Program-made: the position numbers and the translations under genes
Part shown: positions 5,773 through 32,985 of the stretch, one piece after another
How the letters are laid out: the number at the start of each line of letters is the position of its first letter
How positions within the stretch are numbered: position 1 is the stretch's first letter
Assembly: GCA_028711445.1 (NCBI GenBank)
Contig: JAQTSD010000013.1
Location: 1-36,658, forward strand
Length of the DNA: 36,658 nt
Direction: 5' to 3'
Source: Candidatus Peribacteraceae bacterium
Lineage (GTDB): Bacteria > Patescibacteriota > Gracilibacteria > Peribacterales > Peribacteraceae
Notes under the pieces: generated by a model
What the model saw: the letters and a program-made list of their open reading frames with translations, nothing else
The model's database searches: none
Told to the model about the DNA's origin: nothing

Positions 5773-6984
5773 TCAGATCGAGTGAATCACATGCCCCATC
5801 TTCTCCTTCTTCGTTTTCAGATACTTGTGCTGGAGATCTGTGCGCTTTTCAAGTTCGATGGGTACTTGCTCGACGATCTCCATCCCGTAGCCGGAAAGAC
5901 CCACGACCTTCTTGGGGTTATTGGTGAGCAGCCGGATCTTCTCCACCTTAAGATCCTTGAGAATCTGCGCTCCAGTGCCGTAATCACGCAGATCTGCCGG
6001 GAAACCGAGCCGCTCGTTCGCTTCCACCGTATCGAGACCATGGCGACGCTGGAGTTCATAGGCGCGGATCTTGTTGATCAGTCCGATTCCTCGCCCCTCC
6101 TGACGCATGTACACGAGTACGCCACGCCCCTCCCGTTCGATAATGCGCATGGCCGTCTTGAGCTGTGAACCGCAATCGCAGTGCAGCGATCCGAGCACGT
6201 CCCCCGTGAGACATTCCGAATGCACCCGGACCATGACGGGGGCGCCCGAGCCGATATCCCCCTTCACGAGAGCGATGTGTTCACCGGTATCACAGGTGTC
6301 TTCGTAGATGATCATCGTCCAGAGACCGGTTTCTGTCGTGAGCTCCGTCTGGGCGACTCGCTTCACGAGTATTTCGGAGGTGCGACGGTATGCGATGAGA
6401 TCTGCAATGGAGACGATGAGGAGGTGATGCCGCGATGCGAACGTACGAATCTGCGGAAGCCGCATGGTTGTCCCGTCGTCGTTCATGAGCTCGCTTAGGA
6501 CTCCGCCTGTCCTCAGCCCCGCGAGCCTGCAGAGATCCACTGTCGCTTCCGTATGGCCGGCACGGCACAGGATGCCTCCGTCATGCGCACACAGCGGGAA
6601 GACGTGTCCGGGTCGATTGAGATCCTGCGGCCGCGCCGCCGGCTCTACGGCACGGCGAACCGTCTCCGCGCGATCGTGTGCGGAAATACCCGTAGTCACC
6701 CCCTCACGCGCTTCGATGCTCACCGTGAACGGCGTCCCAAAGGCGGACGTATTGCGCGCCACCATCGGCGGAAGATCCAGCTGATCGGCAAGCGCATGCG
6801 AGAGGGCAAGACATACCACACCTCCGGTGTGCCGGATAATGAAGGCCATTGCCTCATCCGTCACATGCTCAGCCGCCATGATAAGATCTCCTTCGTTCTC
6901 ACGTCCCTCGTCATCCACCACGATGACCATGCGACCGTCACGAAGGACCTCAAGCGCCTGCGGAATGGATGCAAAAGACTCCAT
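5773..6984 (-). CDS. ribBA: RibBA: 3,4-dihydroxy-2-butanone-4-phosphate synthase / GTP cyclohydrolase II
   Basis: The protein has 403 residues and two domains. The N-terminal RibB domain (about 1-203) converts ribulose 5-phosphate to 3,4-dihydroxy-2-butanone 4-phosphate; it shows the acidic [12 protein letters not shown] motif and [14 protein letters not shown]. The C-terminal GTP cyclohydrolase II domain (about 207-395) opens GTP to the diaminopyrimidine; it shows the zinc-site cysteines in [18 protein letters not shown] and the RQEGRGIGL loop. Both domains look complete and the length is normal for the fusion. It is a cytosolic enzyme feeding both branches of riboflavin synthesis, with ribH and ribE nearby on the same strand. 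No FMN riboswitch is seen; a TACAAT -10 lies 12 nt upstream. Confidence 0.97.
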
Positions 6985-8861: not shown

Positions 8862-10238
8862 TCACTTCACCTGGATCGTATACGTCTGCTTGGCGGTTCT
8901 CGAGGCCTTGCGTCCCACGGAAACAGTGTAGGTCCCCGTCGGGTAGGTGTAGGACTGATTGCACGTCGGCCCAGTGAATCCGAAGAGATCCACGTCCTTC
9001 ATCGCATACACAAGACAGGAGAGTTGCCCTGCATTCGAGAGAGTAACCGTCATGACTCTCGGCGTGTCGACGGTAAAGGAGTAGAAATCCTGGAAATCAC
9101 CCTCGCTGAGCATCTCCGTGCGCGTGTCGCCACGCTTGATCTTCACTGACTGGATAAACCCGTCATTGCCATCACCAGTCGTTACGGTCGCAACCGCCGT
9201 GTACGTCACATCCGCAACCGTCGGCTGGAGCTGGAGCTGGTAATCACCCGGTCCGATGGCGACTTTTAGAAAACATTTATTCCCCTCCTGGAATCCGAGA
9301 AAGTACTGATCCGAGAATCCCTCGGTCCCCAGCAGATACAGCCGGCAACTCACCATGCCCGATTGTCCGGACTGCAGACCTGTTTCGATGAGCATCACCG
9401 TGTTCTTCGCAAGACTGAAAGTGTAAGAAGAGGACTTCTTGCCAGAGAATTTACCATTCATCGAGAATGGAAAATCTACAGCATAGGATGCCGCTGCCAT
9501 GGAAGAAGCTGCTGCTTCTGAACTCGTCTGTTCCGCGGAAGAAGACGTCTCCCCCGATTGTTCCGAAGCCTGAGAGGAAGCGGATGAGGATGGCTTGCGA
9601 TCATCTGCAAACTGCACGTTTAACGCATTGAAAATATAAGCAGCCGCCTCTCCGCGCAGGAGTGGCCAATCCGGATTGAAGTGCCCACTGACCTGCCCTG
9701 CGATTGGCAAAATCCCCTTCTTGAAGGCAGTGGAGAGATATTTTGTGTACCACGCGGACGTGGAAACATCGACGAACTTCACGAGAGAACGATCTGCTTC
9801 CGTGTAATCGTCAACGGATATCCCGAACACAGTGGTGATCATCTTGATCGCCTCCACGCGATTCACGAGATTGGCCGGACGGAAAGTACTGTCGCCGTAT
9901 CCATCCACAAAATGATTCGCAGCTGCATCACAGATGAACGTTTCGTACCAGCTCTCACGTTCCACATCCTTGAAACAATCCTTGTTTGCCGGATCGGGAA
10001 TGCGTCCTTTGGCTCTGTAGAGCATCTTAATCATCTCAGCGCGATTCACTGCACGCTCCGGGGAAAAGTTGCCGTCGGGATTTCCGTCGATCACGCGTGC
10101 ACCCACGAGCGCCTCAATTGCCTCACGATAGATGTGTCCCACCGGAACATCCGGGAAAATGGGTGCATCGAGTTGTGCAAACGCGACACCGCTCGACAAG
10201 AAGAGTAGTGCTACGAGAAGAATTCCGATTTTGCGCAT
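8862..10238 (-). CDS. Secreted protein: three SLH domains, Ser-rich linker, two PPC-like domains
   Basis: The protein has 458 residues. The signal peptide MRKIGILLVALLFLSSGVAFA has a typical cleavage site. Three SLH modules (about 27-85, 90-145, 155-210) show ALVGARVIDGNPDGNFSPE, FVDGYGDSTFRPANLVNR and KGILPIAGQVSGHFNPDWPL. A Ser/Ala/Glu linker (about 216-250) precedes two similar beta-rich modules (about 252-350 and 360-458). These resemble pre-peptidase C-terminal (PPC) domains, with matching motifs SSSYTFSLAKNTVMLI and QDFYSFTVDTPRVMTV. It is probably anchored to the cell wall by the SLH part with the PPC-like pair displayed; no catalytic domain is seen. AAGG lies just before ATG 10238, and a TATGAT box further upstream would give a short leader. 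Confidence 0.88.
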   Translation of the reverse strand: MRKIGILLVALLFLSSGVAFAQLDAPIFPDVPVGHIYREAIEALVGARVIDGNPDGNFSPERAVNRAEMIKMLYRAKGRIPDPANKDCFKDVERESWYETFICDAAANHFVDGYGDSTFRPANLVNRVEAIKMITTVFGISVDDYTEADRSLVKFVDVSTSAWYTKYLSTAFKKGILPIAGQVSGHFNPDWPLLRGEAAAYIFNALNVQFADDRKPSSSASSQASEQSGETSSSAEQTSSEAAASSMAAASYAVDFPFSMNGKFSGKKSSSYTFSLAKNTVMLIETGLQSGQSGMVSCRLYLLGTEGFSDQYFLGFQEGNKCFLKVAIGPGDYQLQLQPTVADVTYTAVATVTTGDGNDGFIQSVKIKRGDTRTEMLSEGDFQDFYSFTVDTPRVMTVTLSNAGQLSCLVYAMKDVDLFGFTGPTCNQSYTYPTGTYTVSVGRKASRTAKQTYTIQVK

Positions 10239-10786: not shown

Positions 10787-11377
10787 TTAGGAAGAGGGCT
10801 GAGTTGTGAGGAGCTTCCCGACGTAACGACCAAGCACATCCGTTTCGATGTTCACGCAGCCGCCAACGCTCAATAAACCCAACGTTGTCGATGAGAGCGT
10901 GTAAGGAATGAGAGCGATGCGCACATCGCAATCTTTTATATCGGCCACCGTCAATGAAACGCCATCGACGGCGATGGACCCCTTCGAGACGACGCAACGT
11001 GCCAGATTCTGAGGCAACCGGATCACGAGTTCCCTGCTCTCATCTTCGCACAGCCGTACCTCCGTCACCTCACCCACCCCTTCCCCGTGCCCCTGCACGA
11101 TATGCCCCTCAAAGCGGCCGGATGCGGAGAGTGCCCGCTCGAGATTCACTTTGTCGCCGGGATTCAGCGCACCGAGTGTGGTTTTTGTCAGTGTCTCGGG
11201 GACCGTATCGAACGTGAGAGACTGCGCATCGCCCGCCTTCACTGTCAGACAGACGCCGGAGACGCAGATGCTCGATCCTAAGCAAGTATCCTCGAACGCC
11301 TTAGGACGTGAGATCGCAAGCACATGCGCGCTGTGGGAGAGAACGGGGGCCATGACTTCCACGATTCCGGTAAACAT
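10787..11377 (-). CDS. ribE: Riboflavin synthase, alpha subunit type
   Basis: The protein has 196 residues. RibE dismutates two 6,7-dimethyl-8-ribityllumazine molecules to riboflavin. The diagnostic start MFTGIVE is at ATG 11377, which sets the start; an in-frame ATG nine codons earlier is unlikely. Two lumazine-binding barrels are present: the first carries SSICVSGVCLTV and TTLGALNPGDKVNLERAL, the second GHIVQGHGEGVG, KGSIAVDGVSLTV and TTLGLLSVGGCVNIETD. The C-terminal trimerisation helix is short but present. It sits upstream of ribH on the same strand and is divergent from uvrA. Confidence 0.96.
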   Translation of the reverse strand: MFTGIVEVMAPVLSHSAHVLAISRPKAFEDTCLGSSICVSGVCLTVKAGDAQSLTFDTVPETLTKTTLGALNPGDKVNLERALSASGRFEGHIVQGHGEGVGEVTEVRLCEDESRELVIRLPQNLARCVVSKGSIAVDGVSLTVADIKDCDVRIALIPYTLSSTTLGLLSVGGCVNIETDVLGRYVGKLLTTQPSS

Positions 11378-11456
11378 GGAGGACTCTATGGTACTCAAGA
11401 GCATGAGAGGTGAGAAATATTTGCCCCGGGATCCTTGTTTTCCCGCCTTAAGACCC

Positions 11457-14740: not shown

Positions 14741-15247
14741 ATGCCCCGCCACTTCACCTCCACCGCCTTCGTCGTCGATGATCACAAACGCACGCTGCTT
14801 CTGTGGCACAAGCGCTTAGGACGGTGGATGCCTCCGGGCGGACACATCGAAGATGATGAGACGCCGGAGGAAACCGCCAAACGCGAGTGTAAGGAGGAGA
14901 CGGGCCTCGATGTGGAGATCATCGGTACGGAACAGGAGAATATGTTTGCGTCCAATCCTGCAGAAGGCCGCATGTTGAAGAGCCCTATCGCGCTCCTCCT
15001 CGAGGAGATTCCTGCATCTGTGGAGCCCTTCAACTCCGCTCAGAACAGGCAAAATGAACCGGCACACCAGCACATGGACTTCGTCTATCTCGCCCGCCCT
15101 CTCGACACCTCCCAAAAGCTCTCGCTTGATGAAACTGAAGGACGGGAACTTCGGTGGTTCACCTTAAGTGAGATTGCTTCTCTTGATCCATCATCCGAGA
15201 TCTTCTTCAACGTTCAAACCTATATCCTTTCCATTCTCAAGGATTAA
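14741..15247 (+). CDS. Nudix hydrolase
   Basis: The protein has 168 residues. The Nudix box G-x5-E-x7-REUxEExGU is complete: GGHIEDDETPEETAKRECK then EETGLD at about residues 32-55. The domain starts almost at residue 1 (HFTSTAFVVDD). Nudix enzymes cleave nucleoside-diphosphate-linked compounds; the substrate cannot be read from sequence. It lies 48 bp upstream of the RSH fusion gene, so a link to alarmone or nucleotide turnover is possible but speculative. Residues 96-103 (FNSAQNRQ) are encoded by a copy of the dispersed CTTCGAC...GCTCAG repeat and sit in a loop before HMDFVYLARP. The gene is probably leaderless. Confidence 0.92.
   Translation: MPRHFTSTAFVVDDHKRTLLLWHKRLGRWMPPGGHIEDDETPEETAKRECKEETGLDVEIIGTEQENMFASNPAEGRMLKSPIALLLEEIPASVEPFNSAQNRQNEPAHQHMDFVYLARPLDTSQKLSLDETEGRELRWFTLSEIASLDPSSEIFFNVQTYILSILKD
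15026..15049. repeat. Dispersed palindrome unit inside the Nudix coding sequence
   Basis: CCCTTCAACTCCGCTCAG (15026-15043) differs at one base from the intergenic unit CCCTTCGACTCCGCTCAG at 25065-25082. The copy keeps the reading frame and adds a loop to the protein. Confidence 0.65.
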
Positions 15248-15295: not shown

Positions 15296-18028
15296 ATGCA
15301 GTGGAATGAATTCCGCACGCATATTCGGCACCTTTCCGCCGCCGATCAGGAGCGCGTGCGCTCTGCCTTCGGACTCGGCATGGAGCTGCACCGGAATCAA
15401 CTCCGCAAATCGGGGGCTCCCTACTTCACTCACCCGCTCGCGACGGCCGACATGCTCGCCGATATGGGGGCGGATGCCGATTCGCTGATTGCCGCTCTCC
15501 TTCACGACACCATCGAAGATACCCCATTCACTGTAGAAGATGTACGAGCACAATTCGGCCCGATCGTTGCCGATCTTATCGACGGCGTAACAAAGCTCAT
15601 GCCTGAAGATGTCTCCGGGCATCCAACCCTCGATGATCGTATCGAAACACTTCGCAAGATCTTCACGCTCTTGAAGAAAGACGTACGTATCGTCGTCCTC
15701 AAGCTCGTCGACCGCCTCCACAACATGCAAACCGTGGAGTTTGTTTCTCCGGAGAGACAGGAAGCCCTCGCCAGAGAAACATGTGAGGTCTATGTGAAAA
15801 TCGCAGACCGCCTCTGTATGCAGGAGCTGCGCGATGAACTCGAAGAGTACTGCCTGAGCGTCCTCGAACCGGAACTCTTGCAACAGCTCAAGGCACTGCG
15901 AAAGCAGAATGAGCCACAGGGAAAGAAGATCGCCAAGGAGATGCAAAGGGCCCTCGCAAAGATCGCACCACACGATCTTCCTGTCGAGACACTCTTTGAA
16001 CAGAAGGCTTGGGAGACCTTGCGAGAACAAACGACCATCGGTGGCATTGCTGCAACCGGCCTCTCCACACACACGGTGGTCTTCCTTACCAACTCCTCCG
16101 ACGAATGTTATCGCATGCTTGGCTTGCTCCATGACCTCTGGCAACAGGAGATGCTCTCCTTCGAGGATTTCATCAATCACCCACAGATCAACGGTTATCA
16201 GGGGCTCCACACAACCGTCATCCTCGAAGACGGCACTCGTGTTCGCTGCAAGATCCGCACGCACGAAATGCATACATATGCCCGCAAGGGCATTGCCACG
16301 AAGTGCTTCGACAGTGAATCAGCTGGCCTAGTCACCTATCTCCCCTGGACCGAACACATCTCTACTCTCTCAAAGGACTCCGAAGACCGCAGCGAACAAT
16401 TTTGGGAGAGTCTCAAGAGTGACATTCTTCGCGAATCCATCACCATTCACGGGCCGAACGATATCGTAAAACTGCTTCCTACGGGCACCACGGCTCTTGA
16501 TGCCATCTTCTATCTTTTCGAAGAAAAAGGTCTTACCACCCAAGACGTATTCATCAACGGAACGAAGGTCCCTTTCTACGAGGGATTATCGAATGGCTGC
16601 AGTGTGAGCGCCACGTTTGCGGATGAGCCGCAAGTTGAACTCTCTTGGCTCCAGAATGTGCAAACAGGCATTGCAGCCGCTTTCATTCGACAGGGCCTTG
16701 CGCAAGTCCCGGAAAATCAGAAGATACTATTGGGGAAAAACCTCCTTGAACATGCTGTGCGCGCATACGCAAAAGTGGAATGGAGTGAACTGGAAACCGC
16801 CTCCCTCTTACAACATCTCTCTGCTCTCGGTATTTCTTCGTTCGAAACTCTTTATGAGCAGATCGCAGAAGGGAAGATCCAAGCAGAGAGGGCCGCTCGT
16901 TCCCTCTTCCCGGAACACAAATCTCGTAAACCGTTATCGGAGAAAAGACGTTGGAATCTCTCTGTACGATTCCCGACGGCATTGACAGACGTGGTCAACA
17001 AGGCCACGAGAGTCGGCGTTCCACGCTCTCTCTCCTTCCGTCATCTGAACGGAGACTGTCAGATCACTGCTGACTACAATCTCTCCGCCGAACAATCACA
17101 GGAAATGCAAACACTTCTGAGAACCATTCTCCCGGACGAACGCTGGTCATTGGTCCCGAGAACGGCATTGTGTATATCCATCGCCGCCGCCTTCATCCTT
17201 ATTATCCTGTGGGGTCTCGATCCGGTCTTCGCCCACCTGCTCCTCTGGAACTCCACCATTTCCCCCCCAGACCTCACTTTCATCCGCTTCGTTACCCTGT
17301 TTATCGCTACAACGATCCTCTATGGACTGCAAAGCAGATTTACGAAACAGAAGCTCAAACCCCTTTCCCCCCGCCATCCCGCTCTCGTCACCTCCGCTCT
17401 CGCACTCTTCCTTACGGCGTTCTGCTCTTACCTCGCCTTGGAACTCATCTCTCCAACCCAGTACATCCTCTTCATCATCGAAGGACTCATTGTCATTGTC
17501 CTGTTGCGCAGCATCGCCATGCGTACCACTCGGTGGTGGAAACTTCATATTTCGTTCCTCCTCCTCACGCTGGGCATCACCCTCCTCATTGTCATGCAAG
17601 GGACTTCTCCCTTGGGCCTCCTCTATGCTGCCGTCAGCTCACTCGGATTCGCCCTCTACTCGGAAGTAAGCGCGCGGTATCAACGTGGAACGATTCATGC
17701 CCGCTATCCCGCCTTCCTCTTCTGGCTCTCCATCATCGGGATGCCATTTGTATTGCTTCTCCTCCCGTTCACCACTCTCCGCATCCTTCCCGCAGGCGAT
17801 TTGTTACGAAGCATCCTGTTCGCCATCGTGTTCTCGGTGCTCCCGTACGGTCTCTACTACGAATCCATGCGTCGCATGAAGAGCGACCTGCTCGACCGTG
17901 CGCTGCCTTTCGTCTGTCTCTCTACGATCATCGGTGAAGCGATCTCTACACAATCATTCACTCCATTCATAGCCACCCCGCTGCTCGTCGTGTTCCTGTG
18001 GTACTACTCCGCAGCCACACGCTCATAG
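15296..18028 (+). CDS. RelA/SpoT homologue (HD hydrolase, degenerate synthetase, TGS) fused to a 10-TM EamA/DMT domain
   Basis: One uninterrupted frame gives 910 residues. The N-terminal HD hydrolase (about 1-200) is complete: H46 (YFTHP), H70-D71 and E74-D75 (LLHDTIED), and D139 (KLVDRLHNM), as needed for Mn-dependent ppGpp hydrolysis. The synthetase part (about 230-350) keeps the C-terminal motif NGYQGLHTTVI and KIRTHEMHTYA but lacks the upstream ATP-binding and catalytic stretch, so it is probably hydrolase-only. A TGS domain (381-445) and a helical domain follow. Residues about 620-910 contain roughly ten membrane helices with the repeated pattern of EamA/DMT transporters (SSLGFALYSEVSARY; VLPYGLYYESMRRM). 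RSH proteins are normally soluble and end in ACT domains. The gene follows a Nudix gene and overlaps the opposing gene end by 6 bp. Confidence 0.9.
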   Translation: MQWNEFRTHIRHLSAADQERVRSAFGLGMELHRNQLRKSGAPYFTHPLATADMLADMGADADSLIAALLHDTIEDTPFTVEDVRAQFGPIVADLIDGVTKLMPEDVSGHPTLDDRIETLRKIFTLLKKDVRIVVLKLVDRLHNMQTVEFVSPERQEALARETCEVYVKIADRLCMQELRDELEEYCLSVLEPELLQQLKALRKQNEPQGKKIAKEMQRALAKIAPHDLPVETLFEQKAWETLREQTTIGGIAATGLSTHTVVFLTNSSDECYRMLGLLHDLWQQEMLSFEDFINHPQINGYQGLHTTVILEDGTRVRCKIRTHEMHTYARKGIATKCFDSESAGLVTYLPWTEHISTLSKDSEDRSEQFWESLKSDILRESITIHGPNDIVKLLPTGTTALDAIFYLFEEKGLTTQDVFINGTKVPFYEGLSNGCSVSATFADEPQVELSWLQNVQTGIAAAFIRQGLAQVPENQKILLGKNLLEHAVRAYAKVEWSELETASLLQHLSALGISSFETLYEQIAEGKIQAERAARSLFPEHKSRKPLSEKRRWNLSVRFPTALTDVVNKATRVGVPRSLSFRHLNGDCQITADYNLSAEQSQEMQTLLRTILPDERWSLVPRTALCISIAAAFILIILWGLDPVFAHLLLWNSTISPPDLTFIRFVTLFIATTILYGLQSRFTKQKLKPLSPRHPALVTSALALFLTAFCSYLALELISPTQYILFIIEGLIVIVLLRSIAMRTTRWWKLHISFLLLTLGITLLIVMQGTSPLGLLYAAVSSLGFALYSEVSARYQRGTIHARYPAFLFWLSIIGMPFVLLLLPFTTLRILPAGDLLRSILFAIVFSVLPYGLYYESMRRMKSDLLDRALPFVCLSTIIGEAISTQSFTPFIATPLLVVFLWYYSAATRS

Positions 18029-19084
18029 ATCATGCTGTGCCGCTCCCGTCTCGGCCTGCTGTAGGTCGGCAACGAGGACATTCCAATCCGTCTGAAGTGC
18101 GGGCCCGTTCGGATCGTCTGTAACGGGAGTATCGCACCCCTTCACGCGCCACCCAAAGAGGAACGGCAATCGCTTGCTCTTGCGATGCACAAGAACACTG
18201 ATGGTATTGTCGATTGTTTCATCTTCCTGAAGGGAATAGCGCGTCCCATCAGCTTCCCGTAATCCCGTTACCGAGAAGGTTCCCGCAAGCAGGTAACGAA
18301 CACGTGTCCGACCCTCTCTCCGTAAATCAAGGATGCGTTGAACCGCCGCCTCACGGGCAGCAGAAGCGAACCTCAGGTGCATGTACCCCTTCTCGGACGA
18401 GAGATCTTCCACCACGCCCGCGAGGGCCGGATTGCTGTGAATCTCATTGAGCCTGCGCTGGATGAGATCACCGCTCATGATAAGATCGCCACGCTGCTCA
18501 TCGGGAAGGAGTACCCGTGTAAATGCACTGCCACTCGTATCATCAATGAGAGGAATTTGAATATGAACATCTGCAGCGTACCTCGCTTCTTCCTGCTCCA
18601 TCGTTTGCGAATTGAGACGGCTCCCCTTCGCATGGGCGATCACCCAGTGTGGGTCGCGCAGGCGCGCTTCGATACATGCAGGAGTGTAATGCTTCAGGAA
18701 CCCCCCCTCTTCCTCCGCGATATGTTGAGCTGCGCGCAAGGCCTCTCTGTCACCACTCTTATGAAACCGACGGATGGCTGCGGCGAAGAACTCCCCCCGA
18801 TGCAATCCCTCATGCCGTCTATGCAGCTCCTCCACAGCCTCACTCAAACGCTGGCTACCGTCCATTTCCCCATGCAGATCGAACACCTCCGCAGAGAGGT
18901 CTGAAGCAATTGCGAAATGGATGCGATTTTCACGTATGCCTTGCTGGAGACGCTCCAAGATGTGTCTTTCCCTGTTACGTCGAGCGTCCTCGGCGCACAC
19001 GCGACGCATCTGGGTTTCCAGATTGGCAAGTGTGACCCGCTCGTCATCCCAATCCTGTGGATGATCGTCTGCAAAATCAGTCAT
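18023..19084 (-). CDS. Unknown soluble protein, 353 aa
   Basis: I do not recognise this protein. It has no signal peptide or membrane helix. The first half is highly charged and helical (LANLETQMRRVCAEDARRNR, EELHRRHEGLHRGEFFAAA), probably coiled-coil. The second half contains beta-strand-like segments (YAADVHIQIPLID, GYMHLRFASA, YLLAGTFSVTG, FLFGWRVKG). The 3' end overlaps the convergent RSH fusion stop by 6 bp. The start at ATG 19084 is supported by a TAAATT box 8 nt upstream. Base composition matches its neighbours. Confidence 0.7.
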   Translation of the reverse strand: MTDFADDHPQDWDDERVTLANLETQMRRVCAEDARRNRERHILERLQQGIRENRIHFAIASDLSAEVFDLHGEMDGSQRLSEAVEELHRRHEGLHRGEFFAAAIRRFHKSGDREALRAAQHIAEEEGGFLKHYTPACIEARLRDPHWVIAHAKGSRLNSQTMEQEEARYAADVHIQIPLIDDTSGSAFTRVLLPDEQRGDLIMSGDLIQRRLNEIHSNPALAGVVEDLSSEKGYMHLRFASAAREAAVQRILDLRREGRTRVRYLLAGTFSVTGLREADGTRYSLQEDETIDNTISVLVHRKSKRLPFLFGWRVKGCDTPVTDDPNGPALQTDWNVLVADLQQAETGAAQHDL

Positions 19085-21154: not shown

Positions 21155-21160
21155 ATTGTA
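21155..21160 (-). promoter_or_regulatory. -10 box of the M20 peptidase gene
   Basis: TACAAT on the minus strand ends 10 nt before ATG 21144, predicting a leader of about 3 nt. Confidence 0.4.
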
Positions 21161-21235
21161 CCCCGAATACAGACCTGTCCAATCACTTGGCAGCGAATTC
21201 TCCCATCTGAAGTTTCCGAAATGCTTCCGACCGCA

Positions 21236-21241
21236 TACACT
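21236..21241 (+). promoter_or_regulatory. -10 box for leaderless ileS
   Basis: TACACT ends 7 nt before ATG 21249, so the message probably starts at the start codon. No T-box or other leader regulator can fit between this box and the gene. Confidence 0.45.
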
Positions 21242-21248
21242 TGGAACC

Positions 21249-24200
21249 ATGTTCGATCCCGTCGACCCGAGGCAGTCCCTGCCGGCCATGGAGCACGGCA
21301 TCCTCAAGTACTGGAAGGAGGAAGACACCTTCAAACGCTCGATTTCCAATCGCGACCCAGCCGATGCTTTCAGCTTCTTCGACGGACCACCGTTCGCCAC
21401 AGGCCTGCCCCACTACGGCCACCTGCTTGCCGGCACGATCAAAGACGTCATCCCCCGCTATCAGACGATGCGTGGCAAAAGGGTGGAACGGCGATTCGGC
21501 TGGGACTGCCACGGGCTGCCCGTCGAGAACCTCATCGAGAAGGAGGAGAAGATCGCCTCCCATAAGCAGATCCACGAAATGGGCATCGGCGCGTTCAACC
21601 GTCTCTGTGCCCAATCTGTGCAACGCTTCACGAAGGAGTGGCGCGAGGTCGTCGAACGTATGGGACGGTGGGTGGACATGGACAATGACTACCGGACGAT
21701 GGATCCGGACTACATGGAATCCATCTGGTGGGTGTTCTCGGAACTGCATAGGAAAGGACTGGTCTACGAAGGGTACAAGCCGATGTACATCTGTCCCCGA
21801 TGCGCCACACCCTTGAGCAATTTTGAAGTGACGCAGGGCTACCGGGATCGGACCGACCTGTCCGTCATCGTGACTTTCCCTCTGAAGGACGATCCGAAGA
21901 CCACTCTCCTCGCTTGGACAACCACCCCTTGGTCACTCCCGGGAAACATGTGGCTCGCGATCGGCAGACATATCGAGTACTCGCTCGTGGAGTCGGAGGG
22001 TAAGCGTTACATCCTCGCCCGAAAGCAGGTGGATCAGGTGTTCAAAGGGAAAGCATTCCAAATCATCGACACTGTGGAACCGAAGGATCTGACGGGGAAA
22101 GCATATGAGCCACTCTTCCCCTACTTCGTTGGCAAACCGAGCAGCAAAAAGAGGCCGAAGGAAACCTACGGCGACCGCGTCTTCAAGATCGTGATGTACG
22201 ACGATGTAGAAGTTTCCGATGCTGAAGGAACGGGCATCGTTCATGCCACGTCCTGCCTGGGTGAAGACAGTTACCGCATCGCCGTGGGAGAGGACGTGGA
22301 TGTCGTGTGGCACCTCGGTATCGATGGCATTTTTTCCAGCGACGTGACGGACTTCGCCGGCATGCAAGCCAAACCAGAAGGAAAAGACCCGCAAGCGACC
22401 GATCGAGTCATCATCGCCAAGCTGAAAGAGCGGGGAAGGATGTTCTCCTCCTTCAGCTTCACGCACAGCTACCCGCATTGCTGGCGCTGCGATACCCCTC
22501 TTCTTCCCTACACCACCTCTTCATGGTTCGTGAACGTCGAAAAGATCAAGGAGCGGCTTCTCAAGGCCAATGCGAGAACGGAATGGGTGCCTTCTCACGT
22601 ACGTGACGGGCGCTTCGGCAAGTGGCTCGAGAATGCTCGCGACTGGGCAGTCTCGAGAAATCGCTTCTGGGGGACGCCGCTTCCCATCTGGCGCTGCTCG
22701 AAGTCGGGAGAAATCGCAGTGATCACGAGTCGCAACGAACTCATGGCACACGCTCCTCAGCGTTTCACGAAAGTCACCGTGCTGCGCCACGGTGAGAGCG
22801 AGGGGAACCTCATCCCCGTATACCAAGGAAACGTTCCCGGCACCTCGCTGACAGCACGCGGGAAAAAACAGGCAAAGGAAACGGGCCGAGCCCTTGCCGG
22901 AGAGGAAATCTCGGTCATCTATGCCTCTCCTCTCGATCGCACGCAGCAGACGGCAAAACAGATCGCCGAAGCGACCGATGCTCCGGTGGTCACGGATGAC
23001 CGTCTGCGCGAGGTGGCGTTCGGCTCCTACGAAGGGAAGACCGTCGATTTTTCGGATCTCTCTCTCGTGAAAGCACGGCGAGCTCACAAACTGCAGCAGA
23101 GCGCCCCCGAGAGCATCTACCACTTTCCGGGGATGGAGACGTGGCAGGACGTGCAGGTACGCATCTCCAGCTTCTTAACTGAGATCCTACCGAAACACCG
23201 CGGGCAACACATCGTCATCGTCACGCACGCGGACCCACTGCTGAATATCCGCCACGTCTTCACGAAAGAGGATCCTGTGAAACTTTCGCACCGCCCCTAC
23301 CCCGTCTACGCCGATCCTCACACATTTTTCTTCGATCACACGACGCAGTCGCAGCTCGACCTGCACCGGGAGACCGTGGACTCGATCATGTGGAAAGCGT
23401 CGGATGGCGGGAACATGGAGCGCATCGGCGAAGTCTTCGATTGCTGGTTCGAGTCGGGCTCCATGCCCTATGCTCAATCACACTTCCCATTCGAATCCGA
23501 AGCTTCAAGTCCTCATTCCAAAACTCCACATTCCCTTCCTCCCGGTTTCCCCGCCGACTTCATCGCGGAAGGCATGGACCAGACGCGCGGTTGGTTCTAC
23601 ACGCTCATGGTGCTCTCGACCGCGCTCTTCGAGCAGCCGGCGTTTCAGCACTGCGTGGTGAACGGCATCGTGCTCGCTGAAGATGGGAAGAAGATGAGCA
23701 AGCGCCTCAAAAACTATCCTGAACCGATGGAGCTTGTCGAGAAGTACGGCGCGGACGCGGTGCGCTTCACCCTCATGAGCTCGCCAGCCGTGCGCGGCGA
23801 GGACCTGCGTTTCTCAGGCAAACTCGTGGAGGAGAGCGTGCGAAGCGTGCTGCTGCCACTGTGGAACGTCTACAGCTTCTTCGTGACGTATGCGAATGCC
23901 GCAAAATTTGAACCGGTTGAGAACCGCAAGCACTCGACTCACCCCCTCGACCGCTGGATCCGCGCGGAGATGCAGGATCTCTGTAACCGCATGACCGAGC
24001 AGCTTGACCGCTACGATCTCTCTGCCACATGCGCTGAGCTCCATGAGACGATCGATGCTCTCACGAACTGGTACGTCCGCCTGTCGCGTCGCCGATTCGC
24101 CGGCAAAGCGAGTATCGATGCCCCCGACGCGAGCTACACCTCGGAGATGGAAGCGGACGAGGAAGACCGGCTCTCTGCACTCTCAACGCTCTACGACGTT

Positions 24201-25043
24201 CTGTTGTCCCTCAGTCAGCTCCTCGCGCCGTTCTGTCCGTACATTACCGATGCGATCTACTTAAATCTCGTCACGCAGGAACACGGTTCGGTGCACTTAA
24301 CCGACTGGCCCGATGTCCGCAAGCTCACGGATGCAGAAGGGAAGCTCCTCGCCAAAACACGCTTACTGCGGCTCATCGTCTCGCTCGGGCACGCGGTGCG
24401 TTCGGAGAAGAACATGAAGGCGCGCCAGCCACTCAAGCGCGCTGTCATCGCCCTGCCCCCCGCCCTCGCTCTCATCGCCCTCACCGATGAAGATCGCGCT
24501 CTCCTGCGCCAGGAAATGAATGTGAAAGAACTTTCTTTCATAACCGATCCCGGCAAGCTCGCACAGACGGTCGCACTCGTGAACGCGCGCAAGGTCGGCC
24601 CGCGTCTCGGCGCGCGCGTGCAGGAAATCATCGCAGCCGGCAAGCGCGGGGAATTCGAAGTGCAACCTGACGGTATGGTCCTCATTGGCGAAGAACGCCT
24701 CTCCCCCGAAGAAGTGCAGATCGCCTACCGCGGGAAGGAAGGGATGGATGCCGCCGCGGACCGCGGAGTCGTCGTCGGACTGGACACGACCGTATCCACT
24801 GATCTCAAGCTCGAGGGCTGCGTGCGCGATCTCATCCGCGCCGTGCAGAAGATGCGCAAGGACTCGGGCCTCTCCTTCACAGACATCATCGATCTCGACG
24901 TCAAAGGATTCGACGATATCGTGGGAACGTGCAAAGCGCTCCTCGAAGAGGAAACGCGGTCCAAGCTGAAAGCCAATGAGGGGAAGCCGCTGACAGTCGA
25001 GCTTGACGGGAGGAAGGTGACGATCCGGTTTCAGAAGCAGTAA
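21249..25043 (+). CDS. ileS: Isoleucyl-tRNA synthetase (type 2) with an inserted histidine-phosphatase domain
   Basis: The protein has 1264 residues, about 200 longer than usual type-2 IleRS. It charges tRNA-Ile. HYGH (55-58) and KMSKR (815-819) form the class I active site, TTPWSLPGN marks the editing domain, and FGWDCHGLPVE is typical of the eukaryote-like type 2. Between ITSRNEL and DLHRETVD, residues about 505-700 form a complete histidine-phosphatase (phosphoglycerate-mutase-like) domain: R513-H514-G515 (VLRHGESEGN), SPLDRTQQTAKQ, Glu in LREVAFGSYEG, and H660 (IVTHADP). Synthetase sequence resumes cleanly with EVFDCWFESGSMPYAQ. A further ~14-residue insert (SEASSPHSKTPHSLPPG) follows. 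ATG 21249 is chosen because homology begins there and a -10 lies 7 nt upstream. Confidence 0.95.
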   Translation: MFDPVDPRQSLPAMEHGILKYWKEEDTFKRSISNRDPADAFSFFDGPPFATGLPHYGHLLAGTIKDVIPRYQTMRGKRVERRFGWDCHGLPVENLIEKEEKIASHKQIHEMGIGAFNRLCAQSVQRFTKEWREVVERMGRWVDMDNDYRTMDPDYMESIWWVFSELHRKGLVYEGYKPMYICPRCATPLSNFEVTQGYRDRTDLSVIVTFPLKDDPKTTLLAWTTTPWSLPGNMWLAIGRHIEYSLVESEGKRYILARKQVDQVFKGKAFQIIDTVEPKDLTGKAYEPLFPYFVGKPSSKKRPKETYGDRVFKIVMYDDVEVSDAEGTGIVHATSCLGEDSYRIAVGEDVDVVWHLGIDGIFSSDVTDFAGMQAKPEGKDPQATDRVIIAKLKERGRMFSSFSFTHSYPHCWRCDTPLLPYTTSSWFVNVEKIKERLLKANARTEWVPSHVRDGRFGKWLENARDWAVSRNRFWGTPLPIWRCSKSGEIAVITSRNELMAHAPQRFTKVTVLRHGESEGNLIPVYQGNVPGTSLTARGKKQAKETGRALAGEEISVIYASPLDRTQQTAKQIAEATDAPVVTDDRLREVAFGSYEGKTVDFSDLSLVKARRAHKLQQSAPESIYHFPGMETWQDVQVRISSFLTEILPKHRGQHIVIVTHADPLLNIRHVFTKEDPVKLSHRPYPVYADPHTFFFDHTTQSQLDLHRETVDSIMWKASDGGNMERIGEVFDCWFESGSMPYAQSHFPFESEASSPHSKTPHSLPPGFPADFIAEGMDQTRGWFYTLMVLSTALFEQPAFQHCVVNGIVLAEDGKKMSKRLKNYPEPMELVEKYGADAVRFTLMSSPAVRGEDLRFSGKLVEESVRSVLLPLWNVYSFFVTYANAAKFEPVENRKHSTHPLDRWIRAEMQDLCNRMTEQLDRYDLSATCAELHETIDALTNWYVRLSRRRFAGKASIDAPDASYTSEMEADEEDRLSALSTLYDVLLSLSQLLAPFCPYITDAIYLNLVTQEHGSVHLTDWPDVRKLTDAEGKLLAKTRLLRLIVSLGHAVRSEKNMKARQPLKRAVIALPPALALIALTDEDRALLRQEMNVKELSFITDPGKLAQTVALVNARKVGPRLGARVQEIIAAGKRGEFEVQPDGMVLIGEERLSPEEVQIAYRGKEGMDAAADRGVVVGLDTTVSTDLKLEGCVRDLIRAVQKMRKDSGLSFTDIIDLDVKGFDDIVGTCKALLEEETRSKLKANEGKPLTVELDGRKVTIRFQKQ

Positions 25044-30236: not shown

Positions 30237-30264
30237 TTGACACAATATAATAAGATTGTATCTT
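30237..30264 (+). promoter_or_regulatory. Consensus promoter for leaderless gene 30271
   Basis: TTGACA (30237-30242) and TATCTT (30259-30264) are separated by 16 bp. The -10 ends 6 nt before ATG 30271, so the transcript should begin at the A of the start codon. Confidence 0.65.
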
Positions 30265-30270
30265 GTCTTT

Positions 30271-31746
30271 ATGAATCATAGACGCACTGTCTTCATGGGT
30301 GGAGCAGGAGGTTTGGGGAAAACTAGCTTTGGCAAGGCATTAGAAGATGCAAACCCAGGCAGAGTAAAACTCCTCAACTGTACTGAAGAAGCGATGAGAT
30401 CCCTTAATGTTGAGAACCGAAGTGATCTCCATCGGTTTTCCTATGAGGAAAAACTCACAGCAGTTAATGAAGGAATTGAAAGAGCCATGCGAAATATATC
30501 CGACGAAATCCGGTTACTGCTCCTAGATGGCCACTATGCAGTTGAGACTGAACCAAGGAAATTCGAACCTGGTTGCTACCCCATTGCTCTTCAGGACAAA
30601 ATTGATACTGCCCTTCACCTCACAACTACTCCCGACGCTCTCTTGAGCGTGCGACAATTGGATCAACATCGAAAACGAGGATTGAGTCGCGATCAGATCC
30701 AAGATGAGCTTGATCATAATGAAACTGAAGCAAAGACCCTTGAGCAAACGAAAGGAATTCCCCTTCGCTCCATTCCTATTGCATTACAACAATTGAACAC
30801 TCGATGGGATATGTCTGCTGTTTTCTCAACCTTGCAGGAACTCGTGCCAGAACTTCAGGGATCTGACGCATTCAATGGCAAGTCAACATCCATGACCGAT
30901 CGGCCATATCCTGTCATCAGAGCAGATAACATCGACCGTCTTGTTGTAGAAGGTGCGGAATACATTCTTAGAAACGGCAGACCAATCCAATCCCGAGTAG
31001 GTGATGCCATTCAGGCATACAACGTGACCTATCACTTTGATGGCTCTAGAGACAGGGTACACGTTCTTCGCGCTCCACAGGCCATTACATATCTCTGTCG
31101 AGAATTTGTGGAATACTTCAAAGGAACACTTGAGGCAAAGGAGATGGGAAAAGCATCTTCGTTCTGGCTCCATTTGACTGACGAGAATGGTAGAATCAAC
31201 TCCAATTGCGGTTATTGCACATTCAAGCAACCAATTCCGGAATCATCTGGAGGGAATAACCAATTTGAGTGGGTGATCGCACAACTTCGCAAAAACCCCG
31301 ATTCAAGAAAAGCGATCATTAATTTCAATAATGCGGAGCACAAGACTCCTACGAGGGATTTTCCTTGTGTTGTCTCTGCGCAATTCTTTATCGAACAGGA
31401 CACACTCAATTGTTTTGTGTCGTCCCGAAGTACCGATGTTCTTTTTGGTCTTCCTTACGACGTAGGTTATTTTTCATTTCTCAATGAATTACTACTTGCT
31501 CGACTGCGAGAACATTATCCAAAGCTTCAGCTTGGCTCTACTAGCATGCATAGCACCTTCACACAGGTATACGATCTCAACAGACAGAAAGTGATGGCCC
31601 TCCTTACAGATGTTCGCAGATATCACAAAAAGAGGACCCCCTTAATCATGCCTGCGGTGGAATCGGGCACGTACGATGACATTATGAATGGAACACAGAA
31701 GACTGAAGTTGCTAGATGGATACACGAATATGCCTATGGCTCATGA
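30271..31746 (+). CDS. P-loop kinase fused to a thymidylate-synthase-fold dCMP hydroxymethylase-like enzyme
   Basis: The protein has 491 residues from ATG 30271. The N-terminal domain (about 1-200) is a P-loop NTPase with Walker A GGAGGLGKTS (10-19) and a nucleotide-kinase-like layout (LLLLDGHYAVE as a Walker B-like strand). The C-terminal domain (about 215-491) follows thymidylate synthase: FEWVIAQLRKNPDSRKAIIN, catalytic C366 in DFPCVVSAQFF, phosphate-binding SSRSTDVLFGLPYDVGYF, and VYDLN. Where ThyA has Asn in its GxPFN motif this protein has D397. That Asn-to-Asp change marks phage dCMP hydroxymethylases and related CMP enzymes, which act on (d)CMP. The fusion suggests making and phosphorylating a modified dCMP. 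The gene is AT-richer than its surroundings, lies right behind ssrA and is probably horizontally acquired. Confidence 0.8.
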   Translation: MNHRRTVFMGGAGGLGKTSFGKALEDANPGRVKLLNCTEEAMRSLNVENRSDLHRFSYEEKLTAVNEGIERAMRNISDEIRLLLLDGHYAVETEPRKFEPGCYPIALQDKIDTALHLTTTPDALLSVRQLDQHRKRGLSRDQIQDELDHNETEAKTLEQTKGIPLRSIPIALQQLNTRWDMSAVFSTLQELVPELQGSDAFNGKSTSMTDRPYPVIRADNIDRLVVEGAEYILRNGRPIQSRVGDAIQAYNVTYHFDGSRDRVHVLRAPQAITYLCREFVEYFKGTLEAKEMGKASSFWLHLTDENGRINSNCGYCTFKQPIPESSGGNNQFEWVIAQLRKNPDSRKAIINFNNAEHKTPTRDFPCVVSAQFFIEQDTLNCFVSSRSTDVLFGLPYDVGYFSFLNELLLARLREHYPKLQLGSTSMHSTFTQVYDLNRQKVMALLTDVRRYHKKRTPLIMPAVESGTYDDIMNGTQKTEVARWIHEYAYGS

Positions 31747-31851: not shown

Positions 31852-32985
31852 TCAACGTTCAAAGAAAATATTGAGGTAGGTGCGGTATACATAGGAACGG
31901 TCATAGGTTTCTCTTTCATCTCTTGGTTCCAATATTTTCAGTTTTATGAATCTATCAATTAATTTTTGTGCGCCAGCTCTTGTAAACTGAGTCCACACCA
32001 TAATGATACGAGTTGATATGATTGGCTGAGCATAGAGTTTTCTCATGACAGCAACACCGCTTTCGGATTCGCGTTTGGCCAAGGCTTGAATTTTTCCCAT
32101 GTCTTCCTCTCTCAATTTTGTAATTTCTTTACAGATTCTTATAGAGTCATTTGCCGTATCTATTACTGCGTCAAGAAAAAATTCCAACCAAGCCGAAGGT
32201 TTTCCTTCATGGTAATCTTGCAGTGCCTGATAATAAGCTCTTTGGTGTTTCCTAAAATACGAAGAGAAAAATAATACTGGTCTTTCAAGAAGATTCCTCT
32301 GGCAAAGAAGCATGCTGATTAATAGTCTCCCAGTGCGTCCATTCCCATCGAGAAAAGGGTGGATAGTCTCAAACTGAGCATGCATTAATCCCGCGTGAAT
32401 CAGAGGGGGGGCCGATCTTTCGTCATGTAAAAACTTCTCAAAATCGTCCAAAGATCGCTGCATTTCGTTTACGGGTGGAGGAACAAATGATGCATTACTG
32501 GGCATTGTTCCTCCAATGTAGTTTTGAGACTTTCGAAATTCTCCTGGGTCTGCGAAATGTGTTGAACGTGCGCCAGTCATTAACTGCGCATGCAGTTCCC
32601 GAATCAATCTCAACGAGAAAGGGAAATTTTTTAAACGATCGGCGCCATAATGCAATGCTTTAATATAGAACAAAATGTCGTCGGCATCAGTGTGAGCAAC
32701 GGCGATACCCGCGTCTTTCTCCAGTGCATCCACCATCGTTGCTCTTGTGCCTTCAATTTGAGCAGAAGAAGTTGCATCTTTTGTTACGAACATTGAAAGG
32801 AAAAAATCTACATCCGGAAGAGTGTGAGTGATTCCATCAAGCTTACCGACCAAATGGCCCGCTTCAGCTGCTTTGATAAGTAGATTAGTAGACAAATCAA
32901 GAATCCCTTTAGGCGGAAAAGGATTTGGGATAAATGCCAGAAATCCCTCTGCTTGCCGAACATTTTTACCAATTTCTATTAACAT
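31852..32985 (-). CDS. Fic-family protein (AMP-transferase type) with N-terminal inhibitory motif
   Basis: The protein has 377 residues. The Fic motif is complete: HPFLDGNGRTGR starting at H209, preceded by HAQFETI. The inhibitory helix motif S-x3-E-G is at S74-E78-G79 (TSSAQIEGTRAT), which places it among class II Fic proteins that restrain themselves. A Fic_N-like segment (about 20-60) precedes it. The C-terminal part (about 300-377) looks like a winged helix (IISTRIIMVWTQFTRAGAQK). Most such proteins transfer AMP from ATP to a protein hydroxyl; the target is unknown. The gene is AT-rich and flanked by imperfect direct repeats, so it may be a mobile cassette. A CTTAG-CAA-CTAAG palindrome just before ATG 32985 may be an operator. 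Confidence 0.92.
   Translation of the reverse strand: MLIEIGKNVRQAEGFLAFIPNPFPPKGILDLSTNLLIKAAEAGHLVGKLDGITHTLPDVDFFLSMFVTKDATSSAQIEGTRATMVDALEKDAGIAVAHTDADDILFYIKALHYGADRLKNFPFSLRLIRELHAQLMTGARSTHFADPGEFRKSQNYIGGTMPSNASFVPPPVNEMQRSLDDFEKFLHDERSAPPLIHAGLMHAQFETIHPFLDGNGRTGRLLISMLLCQRNLLERPVLFFSSYFRKHQRAYYQALQDYHEGKPSAWLEFFLDAVIDTANDSIRICKEITKLREEDMGKIQALAKRESESGVAVMRKLYAQPIISTRIIMVWTQFTRAGAQKLIDRFIKLKILEPRDERETYDRSYVYRTYLNIFFER

Follow-up and report, generated by a model that had tools for sequence, protein, structure and literature searches.

The window, by which we mean the whole 36,658-nucleotide stretch of DNA that was analysed, contains a gene in which a RelA/SpoT homologue (RSH) is joined to a transporter-like membrane domain. 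An ORF and translation check found it to be one unbroken frame with no internal stop codon, as the original prediction had it. Its domains and the neighbouring genes are as follows.

5773-6984: ribBA, flanking the gene of the S-layer-repeat protein
8862-10238, minus strand: protein with three S-layer homology repeats
10787-11404: riboflavin synthase, likewise flanking the S-layer-repeat gene
14741-15247, plus strand: Nudix hydrolase, 168 aa, with the canonical Nudix box GHIEDDETPEETAKRECKEETG (Pfam NUDIX, 3e-19)
15296-18028, plus strand: RSH-DMT fusion gene, 910 aa, type A (ORF, translation, 38 co-linear homologues)
15374-15814, plus strand: HD domain for (p)ppGpp hydrolysis, aa 27-173, with no metal or catalytic residue lost (Pfam HD_4, 1.2e-36; motif table; dN/dS 0.041)
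15968-16315, plus strand: pseudo-synthetase (aa about 225-340) that retains NGYxxLHTT but has lost its ATP/Mg residues and the ExQIRT Glu (Pfam, motif table)
16427-16621, plus strand: TGS domain, aa 378-442, tRNA-sensing histidine of IHxxxGH lost (AF2 fold, TGS alignment)
16658-16936, plus strand: alpha-helical (AH) domain, aa 455-547, RIS/zinc-finger half absent (Pfam RelA_AH_RIS, profile positions 4-92 of 185; CCxP scan)
16946-17158, plus strand: diverged ACT domain, aa 551-621, whose final strand meets TM1 directly (AF2 secondary structure)
17159-18022, plus strand: 10-TM DMT/EamA domain, aa 622-909 (AF2, EamA search, Foldseek, loop charges)
18023-19084, minus strand: gene running convergently to the fusion gene and overlapping its end (no Pfam match)
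21156-25043, plus strand: IleRS-like tRNA synthetase, 1295 aa (domain search)
30256-31746, plus strand: 496-aa protein with a long N-terminal extension and a thymidylate synthase domain at aa 235-444
31852-32985, minus strand: Fic/DOC-family protein with a Fic_N domain

The same domain order recurs in related organisms. Searches of 59 related genomes and of 288 genomes of the class recovered full-length, co-linear copies, designated type A, from 38 genomes in six families, with lengths from 910 to about 940 aa and a start conserved as MxW. About 31 of the 38 belong to the window's own family, and the others to families f5, f6, f15, f21 and f31. The ten C-terminal helices are part of the order common to all 38 genomes, and the reading frame is open across the RSH/DMT junction in every homologue, leaving no trace of a break near 17.1 kb that might have separated two genes. 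In the two closest genomes dN/dS is 0.093 for the whole gene and 0.107 for the DMT part. Because 38 genomes share this order and the DMT part shows so low a ratio, the fusion is confirmed as genuine. The idea of an assembly error, a frameshift read-through or a functionless chance fusion draws on a single point, that the window comes from a draft genome of 45 contigs; set against complete, stop-free reading frames in independent genomes and the constraint on the DMT part, its probability is negligible, and we rejected it. The genomes searched are small (0.6-2.7 Mb), and some families read through TGA, which would fit a class of the Gracilibacteria type within Patescibacteria. Across 381 genomes of the phylum, the listed matches included no fusion from beyond the class.

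The front of the protein, from HD to AH, belongs to the long RSHs. The order HD-SYN-TGS-AH is present in one protein (Pfam, AF2, phmmer), residues 14-539 align to mycobacterial RelA (8fr8, 7.8e-70) in a phmmer search of solved structures, and Foldseek against the PDB matches this part to full-length SpoT (7qpr, 6e-28) and also to Rel. The NCBIfam spoT_relA model (TIGR00691, cut-off 499.2 bits) is missed by the fusion protein, which scores 373.1 bits over aa 24-555 only; a bifunctional relative with four TM helices (L034, type C below) passes it with 563.6 bits. The hydrolase domain had been predicted to be intact, and indeed H46, H70-D71, E74-D75 and D139 are all there and do not vary across a 38-row full-length alignment; in the fusion protein the intact metal and catalytic set also counts N143. 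This is the most conserved part of type A, with 54% mean identity and the low dN/dS listed above for the closest pair. The synthetase, predicted to be reduced, seems to be dead: its RelA_SpoT Pfam match is partial (aa 264-336, profile positions 32-105 of 113), the equivalents of D264 and E323 are gone from the fusion protein, and all type A rows have lost the Arg/Lys of the RxK...S...K ATP-site motif, the Ser with them (motif table), the catalytic Asp and the Glu of ExQIRT. The guanine-side NGYxxLHTT motif is kept in most type A rows. These motif calls use RelSeq residue identities that we take to be established. Since the HD residues are intact and the synthetase residues lost, (p)ppGpp hydrolysis is the only activity to be expected of type A, an expectation strongly supported by the alignments.

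The domains that follow have lost the usual ribosome-facing features. The TGS domain is where it had been predicted, as the AF2 fold and TGS alignment agree. In known Rel and RelA proteins the histidine of its IHxxxGH motif contacts the tRNA end; this residue is absent from nearly all type A rows shown, with one exception (L139). The CCxP motif of the zinc finger (RIS/ZFD) was found in none of the 38 type A proteins by a CCxP scan. In one respect the original prediction was wrong, namely in having membrane helices replace the ACT domain. Loss of ACT is rejected because the AF2 model has a beta-alpha-beta-beta-alpha-beta unit between AH and TM1, with strands at 551-560, 578-584, 587-596 and 617-621 and helices at 561-573 and 598-611. 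In the fusion protein (P0001) this domain lies below Pfam detection and is missed by sequence searches, and across type A it evolves fast (17% mean pairwise identity). Its final strand runs without a linker into TM1 (622-652) in the model.

The back of the protein is a DMT domain by fold and by Pfam cut-off, in agreement with the ten-helix EamA/DMT domain originally proposed. AF2 on the 38-row alignment (mean pLDDT 87, pTM 0.72) gives exactly 10 C-terminal helices, reaching residue 909. Both EamA repeats were detected in a whole-genome EamA search (aa 629-765 and 773-863), and Pfam EamA matches aa 773-863 of the fusion protein, for which the whole-protein score is 31.0 bits against a cut-off of 28.2. 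Foldseek against the PDB returned the triose-phosphate translocator (TPT; 8.3e-5, TM-score by target 0.70), YddG (3.6e-4, 0.65), SLC35B1 (4.5e-4, 0.73) and also the CMP-sialic acid transporter (CST), so that model and search together put the C-terminal half inside the DMT fold. NCBIfam transporter families gave no match to the fusion protein, and a sequence search with the DMT profile gave no PDB match. Lys and Arg number 3, 5, 3, 3 and 3 in the inside loops versus 0, 0, 0, 1 and 0 in the outside loops; because these charges obey the positive-inside rule, the RSH part is predicted to be cytosolic. The DMT part evolves fast (24% mean pairwise identity in type A), and its dN/dS in the closest pair indicates purifying selection. 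Residues W639, P643, R664, Y712, R803 and P850 are conserved, and generic EamA positions are retained in the TM helices (WG in TM1, R in TM2, GE in TM9). With HD and DMT in one polypeptide, alarmone breakdown would be tethered to the membrane, a suggestion of the original prediction that is supported here.

A second RSH is encoded in the window's own genome and in 12 other genomes of the same family, and here the HD motifs are ruined and the synthetase motifs intact. This protein is soluble in the same-family genomes checked, retains the TGS histidine in 13 of 13 cases, and carries the CCxP motif in 10 of 12 full-length copies versus 0 of 38 for type A. It appears to be a RelA-like synthetase, and a Rel-type enzyme appears to have been split in two, with type A as the putative hydrolase half and the soluble RSH as the putative synthetase half. 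The opposite retention of sensors suggests that ribosome and tRNA sensing went with the synthetase, and ACT and the membrane with the hydrolase. The own genome additionally encodes two small HD-only proteins (L003, L005) and one small synthetase-like protein (L004); because two further hydrolases of HD-only size are present, type A is probably not its sole alarmone hydrolase.

Five RSH architectures were distinguished in the class, of which four (A to D) have membrane helices. Type A is a hydrolase-only RSH-ACT-DMT protein; type B is a hydrolase-only RSH-ACT-4TM-DMT protein of about 1,095 aa with 14 TM helices; type C, widespread in the class (for example L034 and L149), is a bifunctional RSH-ACT-4TM protein; type D has RSH-ACT-4TM and a soluble tail; and type S, found in several genera of the window's family, is soluble and hydrolase-only, with ACT as its last domain. 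One locus (L155, G205:C124, 1333-4614) encodes a bifunctional-looking RSH-ACT-4TM protein that has a further soluble domain, about 340 aa long, at its C-terminus; a GCGPEPG stretch in this domain looks methyltransferase-like by eye, and Pfam gives no match. The 4TM parts of types B and C are homologous (hhalign probability 97, E 1.5e-10). In a tree of the RSH parts, built by a quick method and with some long branches, types A, B and S fall together (97), as do A with B (98), and C makes up a group of its own. In the DMT tree the 38 A domains (97) and the 12 B domains (98) form two groups apart from free-standing EamA proteins. A type A DMT profile found fused copies at E <1e-60 and a best free-standing relative at 2e-7 across 60 genomes, the exception being a fragment of 290 aa from a genome that is 66% complete; this DMT clade thus seems to occur almost only fused to RSH. 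The A and B profiles match each other with 101 bits in hhalign and either matches free EamA proteins with 120-122 bits. A single shared DMT capture for A and B is not supported, since each profile matches free EamA proteins at least as well as it matches the other and the clades are separate; one ancient capture may nevertheless lie behind both. In one protein (L038, G022:C8) the RSH part groups with type A and the membrane part with type B, an apparent exchange of membrane modules between RSH lineages. In this class, several membrane modules (4TM, 4TM+DMT, DMT) appear to have been swapped onto RSH enzymes.

The surroundings of the fusion gene are partly conserved. Between the Nudix gene and the fusion gene downstream of it, which share a strand, lie 48 bp, and the two are likely co-transcribed; an upstream same-strand Nudix gene is found at 21 of the 38 type A loci. 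A convergent ORF of 318-508 aa lies within 50 bp of the fusion gene at 34 of 38 loci. We considered it as one conserved family and rejected this, as leave-one-out profile growth reached 8 of 36 sequences and hhalign joined some clusters only; what recurs appears to be the position, occupied by several clusters that are not all detectably related. The ileS gene lies 3 kb downstream of the fusion gene, and in 19 of 24 family genomes it is at most about 4 kb from a hydrolase-type RSH gene (A, B or S), co-oriented for type A and divergent for most B and S. This linkage may be shared gene order only. The IleRS itself has a histidine phosphatase domain (His_Phos_1, 1.9e-37) with an intact RHG motif, which interrupts its catalytic domain at aa 541-707. 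In many relatives the enzyme is about 1450-1500 aa long, with a further insertion near residue 750 that is perhaps a second phosphatase copy.

That the fusion protein is embedded in the membrane and hydrolase-only is strongly supported. We regard it, with a probability of about 0.5, as a SpoT-like enzyme of this kind that takes its DMT domain as input, in other words an alarmone 'transceptor', for which we infer catalysis, gating and ligand as follows. The HD domain would degrade (p)ppGpp in the cytosol. The C-terminal domains of Acinetobacter baumannii SpoT allosterically activate its HD domain, with the Core as linchpin (PMC9974481), and in the fusion protein the pseudo-synthetase, Core, TGS and AH would likewise be a scaffold that keeps HD active. 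Ribosome and tRNA input would have been lost from type A, because the zinc finger is missing and the TGS histidine almost always gone, and the C-terminus would instead be wired through ACT to the 10-TM domain. Most economically, binding or transport of a DMT substrate would move the ACT/AH cap and so set the rate of hydrolysis, a gating for which the one basis is that ACT joins TM1 continuously. A separate soluble RelA-like enzyme would make the alarmone when ribosomes starve. The arrangement suggests that the input which turns the ppGpp signal off comes from the transporter's sensing and not from the ribosome. As to the ligand, the linkage of ileS to the hydrolase-type RSH gene leads us to guess at an amino acid, perhaps a branched-chain one, isoleucine or a relative.

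A sensor role calls for caution, as the fast divergence of ACT and DMT would fit a loose tether equally well, and the soluble hydrolase in several genera of the family implies that DMT is dispensable there. The membrane part might accordingly be an anchor that localises ppGpp breakdown and no longer transports or senses. The simpler 4-TM module, which follows ACT in bifunctional RSHs elsewhere in the class and has its homologue in the first four TM helices of type B, would fit such an anchor, and membrane attachment rather than transport may be the older trait; rapid DMT divergence and the interchangeable look of the modules, with a type A RSH on a type B membrane part in G022, point the same way. 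For a bare anchor, however, purifying selection (0.107) would not have to preserve all ten TM helices and both repeats of the DMT fold, or the conserved residues and generic EamA positions listed above, and we consider this explanation unlikely, if a serious one. Signals might also flow in reverse, with the RSH part sensing (p)ppGpp or guanine nucleotides and gating the transporter. The dead synthetase has kept NGYxxLHTT through deep divergence and may still bind G nucleotides, and the direct fusion of ACT to TM1 would serve this direction too; yet the HD catalytic domain is the most conserved part, which argues for catalysis as the output, and soluble hydrolase-only relatives do without any transporter. 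Such reverse flow seems improbable to us.

It has long been asked how hydrolases of the SpoT type detect carbon, lipid or nutrient stress with no help from the ribosome. Here evolution has apparently split Rel into a synthetase with tRNA and ribosome sensors and a hydrolase on a transporter fold, in tiny-genome, probably host-dependent bacteria whose physiology relies on imported metabolites. The fusion would be the first clear membrane-embedded stringent factor. If the DMT domain does gate HD, nutrient control of alarmone breakdown could be tested directly in a single protein, and a new class of transceptor would stand beside CbrA. The broadest formulation, a first alarmone transceptor with DMT-gated hydrolysis, a fully split Rel with synthesis driven from the ribosome and breakdown from the membrane, and exchangeable modules across the class, is tentative, and we hold its odds to be a little short of even.

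The original prediction knew of no characterised RSH-transporter fusion, and we found none among the open-licence papers searched; the word 'transmembrane' is absent from the text of the founding RSH survey (PMC3153485). A link between ppGpp and EamA through riboswitches (PMC7266159) was set aside, as the EamA-associated ykkC subtype there is without a determined ligand and has no bearing on this protein. Of known systems, A. baumannii SpoT (7qpr, PMC9974481) is the best Foldseek match and has an intact HD, pseudo-synthetase, Core, TGS, helical and ACT/RRM-type domains in the same order, and it too is the partner of a separate RelA synthetase; unlike the fusion, it is soluble and has a zinc finger, whereas the fusion lacks the finger and carries a 10-TM DMT domain after ACT. 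The DMT/EamA transporters YddG (5i20), TPT (5y78) and SLC35B1 (9gry) resemble the back part in their 10 TM helices and two EamA repeats (TM-score by target 0.65-0.73), but known members are free-standing, and in 60 genomes the fusion clade shows no close relative that stands alone. Plant RSH1 was once described as membrane-anchored through its C-terminus, and its GFP fusion was seen in chloroplasts (PMC5633626); with only two putative TM segments and no transporter domain it is a weak precedent. Type C proteins (L034, L149) share RSH and ACT followed by membrane helices and the absence of the zinc finger, but both their active sites are intact, they have only 4 TM helices and they form a separate clade. 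In CbrA an SLC5 transporter and a histidine kinase form one chain in which the transporter signals to the enzyme (PMC13022988, PMC7096432). CbrA and the fusion thus each combine a transporter and a signalling enzyme in one polypeptide, with a small regulatory domain between them; the transporters are unrelated, and the output of CbrA is phosphorylation of a response regulator, whereas that of the fusion would be alarmone hydrolysis under a gating that we infer.
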